Assembly: GCA_030747785.1 (NCBI GenBank)
Contig: JASLKC010000055.1
Location: forward strand, 1-64,000
Reading direction: 5' to 3'
Source of the DNA: Candidatus Poseidoniaceae archaeon
Lineage (GTDB): Archaea > Thermoplasmatota > Poseidoniia > Poseidoniales > Poseidoniaceae
DNA: 64,000 bases
Shown: one piece after another, positions 60,771 through 62,365 of the stretch
Position numbering within the stretch: the first letter of the stretch is position 1
How the letters are laid out: each line of letters begins with the position of its first letter
Translations under genes and position numbers: made by a program
Notes under the pieces: generated by a model
The model's input: the letters and a program-made list of their open reading frames with translations, nothing else
The model's database searches: none
Told to the model about the DNA's origin: nothing

Positions 60771-61877
60771 TCAGTGCGAATGTCCTAATCCCAGAACGTC
60801 TGCCAAAAGCAGTAATGCAATCATTATTACAATCCCTGCAACGACATAGGTCATTGCTTTCTTTCCTGATTCAGCATTGTGAATGTCGGGAAGAGTATCG
60901 ACAGTAGCGACGTAAAGGAAAGTTCCTCCAGAGAATAGCATTGTCAAACCAATTATCGAAGTCTCTAATCCTTCCAATGCAAAATATGCAATCATAATCA
61001 TAACAGGAGTTGCTAAAGAAAAGATTATGACATCTTTGATTGAATCTTTTCTCTCACTTCTTTCATGCATCGAAAATACGCCAAGACTGAATGCAGCAGG
61101 TCCTTTGTGAATCAATACAGCAAAGACTACTGCAGCGGTTAGGGAAATGCTGCCAGTTGCCGCAGCCGCTCCTACTGCAAGACCGTCAGTTGCTGCGTGA
61201 AGTGTTAATCCGAAAACCAACATCCAACCTGATGCACTATGATGCACATGGCCATGACCATGTTCGTGAGAATGCTCGTGATGCTCTTCGTGTACAGCAT
61301 GACCGATCCCTGAACCCTCCAGGATTAACATTAGAACAAATCCCCCTAATATTGCACCTCCAAGCATCAATCCGCTAGCATGTTCTTCATGCTCATCTTC
61401 ATGGGAATGTGCGCCTATTAGTTCGGTGATTTCTAAGATTCCAGTTGAAGCATCAATTTCTTCATGCTCAACTTCCTCGATAACATGTTCAATTTTTGCA
61501 GACAAACCTTCTCCGTGTTCATCAGCATGATCATCATGACCCTCCTCGTCTTCATGGTCATCATGGCCCCCGAGCAAGGCTTCGATTTCCTCGATACCTT
61601 CTTCGGCGGTAATTTCGTCATTGTTAACTTCTAGAATAATCAATGCAGTTGAGCCTGCAAGTCCTTCTTCAGCCGCATGCTCATCGGTCGTAGCCAATTC
61701 GTATCCTTCAGGTATTACAACTAATAATGCAGAGGCAATAATAATTCCAGCAGCTATGCCAGTCAGTATTTTTAGCTTATTTGCATCTTCTTTTATCTTC
61801 GTGAAGATAGGTGCTAAACCGCACACCAAGGCTATGATTAGGGCAATTAGCGCATACATCAATACCGTTGAGGACAT
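60771..61877 (-). CDS. ZIP-family metal transporter
   Basis: 368 aa. Importer of Zn2+ or other divalent metals across the membrane. The metal-site helices are HAATDGLAVGAAAATG (TM4) and IHKGPAAFSLGVF (TM5). Seven to eight spans are visible. Two His/Asp-rich stretches stand out: one between spans 2 and 3 (GGHDDHEDEEGHDDHADEH) and one before TM4 (EEHHEHSHEHGHGHVHH), plus a final HSH. These may sense or collect metal. ZIP sequences with large His loops are known, but the first is unusually long. ATG 61877 is near the expected start point of a leaderless transcript from the TATA element at 61898-61905. Divergent from a NikR-like regulator. Confidence 0.9.
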   Translation of the reverse strand: MSSTVLMYALIALIIALVCGLAPIFTKIKEDANKLKILTGIAAGIIIASALLVVIPEGYELATTDEHAAEEGLAGSTALIILEVNNDEITAEEGIEEIEALLGGHDDHEDEEGHDDHADEHGEGLSAKIEHVIEEVEHEEIDASTGILEITELIGAHSHEDEHEEHASGLMLGGAILGGFVLMLILEGSGIGHAVHEEHHEHSHEHGHGHVHHSASGWMLVFGLTLHAATDGLAVGAAAATGSISLTAAVVFAVLIHKGPAAFSLGVFSMHERSERKDSIKDVIIFSLATPVMIMIAYFALEGLETSIIGLTMLFSGGTFLYVATVDTLPDIHNAESGKKAMTYVVAGIVIMIALLLLADVLGLGHSH

Positions 61878-61897
61878 AACCTTTCGTCAGATAATAA

Positions 61898-61917
61898 GTA
61901 TATAATAAATGTTATTA
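61898..61917. promoter_or_regulatory. Divergent TATA element with overlapping operator-like inverted repeat
   Basis: TATATAA at 61899-61905 lies about 25 bases from the ZIP ATG (minus strand) and about 38 bases from the regulator ATG 61940, suiting both directions. TAATAA-ATG-TTATTA at 61903-61917 is a perfect 6+6 inverted repeat overlapping it. A ribbon-helix-helix dimer bound there would block both promoters, giving metal-dependent control of the transporter and autoregulation. Confidence 0.6.
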
Positions 61918-61939
61918 ATTTCGGATGAGACGGAAAAAT

Positions 61940-62365
61940 ATGTCCAGAATAATGTCCTTTAGTACCGACAATGATTTTGCCAATTTATTGGATGATTTGA
62001 TTGATAGATCGGGCTACAAAAACCGGAGTATGTTTTTGCGAGATGCCAGTCTTTATTTTGCAGAAATAACACAAAAGGGAGATCTATCCACTATGAAAAG
62101 TAGCGATATTGTAGAGGGAACTTTGGTAATTTACTATCAGCACGGAGTAGAGAGTAAACTTGCGGAATTACGGCATTCCCATTCTATTTCAGTTTCTTCT
62201 TATCATCATAACTGTCTCACTGAAAGCCATACTTGCGTAGATACTATGCAAATCAATGGCAAAGTGAAGCCATTGAAAGAAGCGATATCTAGTCTGAGAA
62301 ATACTCAAGATATCGACAGGGTAGTTTTCGTTTCAGCTCCAATGAGACAAGAAGGCTGTTGCTGA
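61940..62365 (+). CDS. NikR-like metal-responsive transcription regulator
   Basis: 141 aa. The N-terminal ribbon-helix-helix (residues 1-45, SRIMSFSTDNDFANLLDDLI, with RSMFLRDASLYF) binds DNA. The C-terminal ACT-like domain resembles NikR (GTLVIYYQHGVESKLAELRH, VSSYHHNCLTESHTC, DRVVFVSAPM). In NikR nickel is held by three His and one Cys; here His and Cys remain but the spacing differs (HHNC..SHTC), so another metal such as zinc is plausible given the ZIP neighbour. The last residues are GCC. ATG 61925 and 61952 are other possible starts. Divergent from the transporter across a shared AT-rich promoter. Confidence 0.82.
   Translation: MSRIMSFSTDNDFANLLDDLIDRSGYKNRSMFLRDASLYFAEITQKGDLSTMKSSDIVEGTLVIYYQHGVESKLAELRHSHSISVSSYHHNCLTESHTCVDTMQINGKVKPLKEAISSLRNTQDIDRVVFVSAPMRQEGCC

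Follow-up and report, generated by a model that had tools for sequence, protein, structure and literature searches.

A NikR-type regulator and its predicted operator point to a zinc-import switch in Poseidoniales archaea

The window studied here, a stretch of 64,000 nucleotides, comes from a 1.83 Mb genome of the Poseidoniales (Marine Group II). At positions 61878–61939 it contains a gap of 62 bases from which 2 genes diverge, as the original prediction had described. On the minus strand, a gene at 60771–61877 with its start at 61877 encodes a ZIP-family metal transporter of 368 amino acids with a histidine-rich loop (PF02535, E = 1.6e-29), which we propose as a regulated target. On the plus strand, the gene at 61940–62365 encodes a NikR-type regulator of 141 amino acids that combines a ribbon-helix-helix with a NikR_C metal domain (PF08753, E = 1.2e-7), so that both the NikR-like regulator and its facing ZIP partner were named correctly from the outset. 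We place the start of the regulator at 61940 because homologs align from this position and because only this codon fits the promoter; an alternative start at 61925 was rejected, as relatives begin at 61940 and the TATA-like box described below would fall at −13 to −7. The ZIP transporter has a single, weak relative among solved structures (BbZIP), and its motifs HAATDG and HKGPAAFSLG presumably recall those of eukaryotic ZIP9. A second type of ZIP was seen within open frames of 760–800 amino acids in Poseidoniales genomes (e.g., G018:C7:5702 and G051:C104:6492).

The regulator scores 32.2 bits against NikR_C (PF08753, E about 1.1e-7 to 1.2e-7, cut-off 22), and its closest solved relative is the NikR of P. 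horikoshii, with an alignment spanning both domains (phmmer, E = 3.8e-6). Its AlphaFold model has a mean pLDDT of 79, with the first 6 residues (the ribbon) poorly placed at pLDDT below 50, and the top 39 Foldseek matches of this model are all NikR proteins (best 2bj7, E = 7.5e-8; TM 0.5–0.7). As modeled, the protein has the NikR fold with an N-terminal ribbon-helix-helix followed by a C-terminal ACT-like domain; a Fur-type winged helix as in Zur was not found in the regulator, of which PF08753 is the sole Pfam domain. It nevertheless falls far below the NCBIfam cut-offs for nickel-responsive NikR (PRK01002, 38.4 versus 111; PRK04460, 37.4 versus 105; TIGR02793, 29.7 versus 175).

Nickel is bound in E. 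coli NikR by His87, His89, Cys95, and His76′ (PMC7055735). In the regulator, His79 (codon 62174–62176, plus strand like all codons given here) aligns with His76, and Cys99 (62234–62236) aligns with Cys95; within His90-Asn91-Cys92 (62207–62215), His90 corresponds to His87 and Cys92 stands in place of the ligand His89. The altered ligands that had been predicted are therefore real, since the His3Cys set is broken by a cysteine at the His89 position in 34/34 regulators of ZIP-type loci. Among 49 regulators of loci where a ZnuA-family protein is the partner instead, this position holds Cys in 29, Ser in 18, and Thr in 2. The His87 equivalent is kept in all members of both types, the Cys95 equivalent in 34/34 ZIP-type and 47/49 ZnuA-type members, and the His76 equivalent in 34/34 and 34/49, with its loss (15/49) in one ZnuA-side subclade. 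The metal site is thus not uniform, since His79 is lost in 15/49 and Cys92 is replaced by Ser or Thr in 20/49 members on the ZnuA side. The subclade of L090, L092, L077, and their relatives, in which the His76 ligand is lost, carries HHSSRLGHSCHSC instead of HHNC..SHTC and appears to have rebuilt its metal site a second time. A C-terminal Cys140-Cys141 pair (62357–62362; 34/34 ZIP-type and 48/49 ZnuA-type members) is specific to the Poseidoniales group and is absent outside it. Where E. coli NikR has Glu30, which is a ligand of its potassium site (PMC7055735), the regulator group has Met or Arg. Of the high-scoring NikR proteins of the phylum, 30/30 have His3Cys including histidine at the His89 position.

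A His2Cys2 site of this kind would be compatible with tetrahedral zinc. It is improbable that the regulator is instead a genuine nickel sensor, with adjacent importers that carry nickel and a cysteine substitution that leaves selectivity unchanged: although it belongs to the NikR family, retains 3 of 4 ligands, and has some high-scoring relatives in the phylum that adjoin nickel-insertion LarC genes, with Cys in place of His89 the known set of nickel ligands is no longer intact, the scores lie far under the nickel-NikR cut-offs, and every divergent partner in Poseidoniales is a ZIP or ZnuA protein.

For the gap itself, the original prediction had proposed a TAATAA-N3-TTATTA repeat as operator, overlapping a single TATA core that would serve both directions. 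A perfect copy of the repeat indeed lies at 61903–61917 (plus strand) and is the only one in 64 kb, where 0.01 would be expected. When the gap is aligned in relatives, however, the inverted repeat is not conserved: among 84 non-redundant loci (34 ZIP-type and 50 ZnuA-type), it is exact in only 2, namely 1/34 ZIP-type and 1/50 ZnuA-type gaps, and its left arm varies at the fourth base (A16 G10 C3 T1 in 30 ZIP-type gaps); we dropped this repeat as the operator. In its place the alignment reveals a different, strongly conserved element, WTAWTANNTATWTAANAAATRTTATTAATT, located at 61890–61920 (plus strand), with near-invariant columns across 30 aligned ZIP-type gaps that share 29 bp of the form TAWTANNTATWTAANAAATRTTATTAATT. 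Its spacing is nearly fixed in most relatives, with 12–13 nt to the transporter start and 19–20 nt to the regulator start.

The element contains 2 TAWTA pentamers, 21 bp apart from center to center (TAWTA-N16-TAWTA), of which putative operator pentamer A (TAATA, 61892–61896) is found 14 nt ahead of the ZIP start codon and putative pentamer B (TATTA, 61913–61917) lies 21 bp from it with N16 in between (both plus strand). Each gene further has its own TATA-like heptamer at −28 to −22, which makes the reading of one shared TATA core unlikely, and we abandoned it in favor of 2 boxes. The putative box of the ZIP promoter (61899–61905, minus strand; −28 to −22 from the ZIP ATG) has pentamers on both sides and occupies conserved element columns 9–15, and that of the regulator (TTATTAA, 61912–61918, plus strand; −28 to −22 relative to the start codon at 61940) shares bases with pentamer B in conserved columns 22–28. 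These distances would fit the spacing expected for leaderless archaeal genes; a promoter background from genes of the window (21 usable genes with uncertain starts) gave a weak AT peak and was uninformative.

As both TATA-like boxes lie inside the element, part of its conservation reflects promoter rather than operator function. We nevertheless regard it as very improbable that the element is merely a pair of back-to-back archaeal promoters whose AT-rich core elements, placed at the distance expected for leaderless genes, explain all conservation without an operator. Pairs of TAWTA pentamers 21 bp apart, i.e., a half-site dyad 2 helical turns apart, occur in 30/34 ZIP-type gaps and 48/50 ZnuA-type gaps (0.3 and 1.1 expected from shuffles, respectively), and this exact spacing recurs at 3 kinds of promoters but is absent from ZIP promoters of genomes without the regulator. 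A matrix built from ZIP gaps alone has its best site at the corresponding position of the ZnuA gaps, with scores of 3.0–45.8 there and scores below 0 in the remainder of these loci. In a scan with the matrix, the conserved element was not found at ZIP orthologs from genomes without a detected regulator, which score at most 0.6 (versus 28.6–46.4). A pattern search also links the sites to the regulator gap: in 40 genomes with the regulator, a stricter pattern matched 34 times, with 32 matches in this gap, and 27 genomes lacking the regulator gave 0 matches. In its own genome the element has exactly one site, which is the sole match at up to 3 mismatches. One more operator-like site (G030:C32:23363) falls within a coding frame, and we regard it as a chance match. 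Taken from sequence comparison, the conserved TAWTA-N16-TAWTA is the predicted operator of the NikR-type regulator and appears tied to the presence of this protein.

The operator of H. pylori NikR consists of pentamers TRTTA and TAWTA with a 15-nt spacer (PMC5385501). TAWTA is common to both systems and the pentamers are 2 helical turns apart in each, with a spacer of 16 rather than 15 nt (21 bp here versus 20 bp there); this match to a footprinted operator supports the binding model proposed below. The regulator is a member of the NikR family that fails 2 tests for nickel-responsive NikR yet would seem to behave like NikR on DNA.

The divergent neighbor of the regulator is ZIP in 34/84 non-redundant loci and a ZnuA-family binding protein in about 50 gaps (PF01297, E down to 3e-62), where a third pentamer follows 22 or 25 bp further along. 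One locus, L064, contains a full znuABC set, with genes for a ZnuC-type ATPase and a permease of the ZnuB type (PF00950, E = 7.5e-56) after that for ZnuA. Among 65 regulator-bearing genomes, 42 have only ZnuA, 17 only ZIP, 3 both, and 3 neither, a mutual avoidance with Fisher p = 6e-10 (not corrected for shared ancestry), and in every ZIP-only genome ZIP adjoins the regulator. Parsimony on the tree of regulators gives 5 switches of partner, of which 2 are forced by well-supported branches. Mixed combinations exist as well: L050 is a ZIP-type locus inside a ZnuA clade (support 98) that has retained the ZnuA-type operator array, and L063 and L064 are ZnuA-type loci with a ZIP-type operator. Because of these partner changes and mixed combinations of partner and operator, a single switch seems able to use either the ZIP or the ZnuA importer as its output. 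One record among these loci, AH-558-G13 (L041), is titled Deltaproteobacteria but has a Poseidoniales-type locus with a regulator nearest to that of L038 (Poseidoniaceae), and is probably mislabelled or mixed.

The ZnuA proteins of Poseidoniales (L052:1177-3912, L073:412-2979, L064:1831-3945, and other ZnuA-type loci) are 700–1000 amino acids long, and their PF01297 domain is interrupted by an insert, several hundred residues in length and rich in His/Asp runs and EF-hand calcium motifs, for which a calcium-linked role in metal buffering is possible.

A third kind of promoter is not linked to the regulator gene. In one of the 2 genomic sites outside the regulator gap (G046), the near pentamer lies 14 nt ahead of a gene start; the gene encodes a YpdA-like flavoprotein (PF13738) with a Cys-rich C-terminus (L198:1122-2252, L201-L226). 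Of 99 genomes, 26 have an ortholog of this flavoprotein, and ZnuA is also present in 23 of these (p = 2e-5). TAWTA-N16-TAWTA occurs in 25/26 of the ortholog promoters (0.42 expected), and its distance to the ATG is mostly 14 nt, as it is at ZIP. In 5/26 flavoprotein genomes the regulator was not detected, which may be because the sequence is missing from these assemblies (81%–88% complete). This unlinked site is the best evidence here for a regulator acting in trans, as opposed to a mere pair of conserved promoters.

We therefore read the gap as regulatory DNA for a switch of zinc import, operated by a zinc-responsive NikR-type autorepressor, with a probability of roughly 0.72. The regulator would form a NikR-type tetramer in which 2 ribbon-helix-helix dimers are joined by the metal-binding ACT-like core. 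With ample zinc, the metal would fill the His2Cys2 site (His79′, His90, Cys92, and Cys99, perhaps assisted by the C-terminal Cys-Cys) and thereby position both DNA-binding dimers to grip the 2 TAWTA pentamers 2 helical turns apart. Since pentamer A is located between the ZIP TATA box and the leaderless start and pentamer B covers the TATA box of the regulator itself, bound regulator may block TBP and TFB on both strands and switch off ZIP import and its own synthesis together; under zinc shortage, it would be released and both genes would open. In relatives, this pairing of protein and operator would govern ZnuABC in place of ZIP, plus the flavoprotein.

Judged from the partner genes, zinc is likely the signal metal: the regulator and its operator are paired now with one, now with the other of 2 unrelated zinc-type importers, and this operator recurs at a third promoter. 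The presence of the predicted operator at both ZIP and ZnuA promoters would fit a zinc-uptake repressor. The ZIP (PF02535) and ZnuA (PF01297) families, both found here, include manganese and iron importers as well as those for zinc, and the same switch might thus sense and carry one of these metals. We consider this unlikely: the 2 cysteines of the predicted site would favor a soft or borderline metal such as zinc over manganese, and the His/Asp runs of the ZnuA insert resemble zinc binders. A survey of Poseidoniales, which does not mention NikR, moreover reported a zinc transporter in most members but not in deep-water genera, and this surface-versus-deep distribution fits zinc scarcity (PMC6461757).

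The zinc-responsive switch that we propose shares the fold, the domain order, and the equivalents of His76, His87, and Cys95 with NikR of H. pylori, E. coli, and P. horikoshii, but differs in the cysteine at the His89 position, the added C-terminal Cys-Cys, and partners that are ZIP or ZnuABC rather than nickel importers. Zur and AdcR of bacteria would have the same function, in that they repress zinc uptake genes such as znuABC in response to zinc, with unrelated DNA-binding folds of the Fur and MarR families (PMC6103462); that review, which covers zinc regulation in bacteria, lists sensors of the Fur, MarR, MerR, and ArsR families without mentioning NikR, and another calls NikR the sole metal-regulated ribbon-helix-helix protein, for nickel (PMC7055735). 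A zinc response was already suggested in 2011 for MTH603, a NikR homolog beside znuABC in Methanothermobacter, though without analysis of operator, ligands, or regulon (Kaster et al., PMC3087415). Both systems thus have a NikR homolog adjoining a ZnuABC cluster, but Poseidoniales are another archaeal lineage, also use ZIP, and carry the Cys substitution. The idea of a zinc-responsive NikR homolog is therefore known, and the operator, regulon, and altered ligands are added here; we found no literature on this operator or regulon among open papers and no experimentally defined archaeal zinc-uptake repressor in the literature searched. If true, a NikR tuned to zinc would illustrate how the metal of a given scaffold can change, with a single-residue ligand change that is directly testable, and its operator sites could serve as a readable signal of zinc stress in one of the most abundant groups of archaea in the zinc-poor surface ocean.

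In other Thermoplasmatota, NikR_C proteins with lower scores (L133-L169) lie beside ZnuABC or ZIP in 21/32 loci and mostly retain His3Cys. The zinc context is thus independent of the Cys change: comparison gives good support to the proposed uptake switch under a NikR-family protein with zinc as the likely metal, but the altered ligands are not what sets this context. Upstream of the lower-scoring loci, GTTAWTAA half-sites occur in 16/33 (0.7 expected) and a 22-bp pentamer spacing in 9/33 (0.2 expected), compared with 2/30 and 0 at high-scoring NikR loci. Among the latter, 4/30 adjoin a LarC nickel-insertion gene and one of 30 lies beside ABC-3 and ATPase genes. Neighbor queries with close homologs gave zinc-type transporters at 1/30 high-scoring loci, to which Pfam added at least 6 more, where NikR with unchanged ligands faces a divergent PF01297 protein (L106, L107, L109, L110, L112, and L127). 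The contrast in zinc-type neighbors (21/32 lower-scoring versus 7/30 high-scoring, p = 0.001, from sets that were scanned unequally and with shared ancestry uncorrected) is therefore weaker than it first appeared; zinc and nickel NikR cannot be told apart by their partner alone, and the zinc context is not unique to the divergent branch. Next to 3 haloarchaeal plasmid homologs that were checked, there were no Znu or ZIP genes. With somewhat less confidence than for the switch itself, we favor the view that a zinc-sensing branch of NikR serves as zinc-uptake repressor in many archaea of the phylum, with its own operator code of GTTAWTAA half-sites and swapped ZIP or ZnuABC outputs, within which the Poseidoniales would have moved to a His2Cys2 site and extra control of the flavoprotein.
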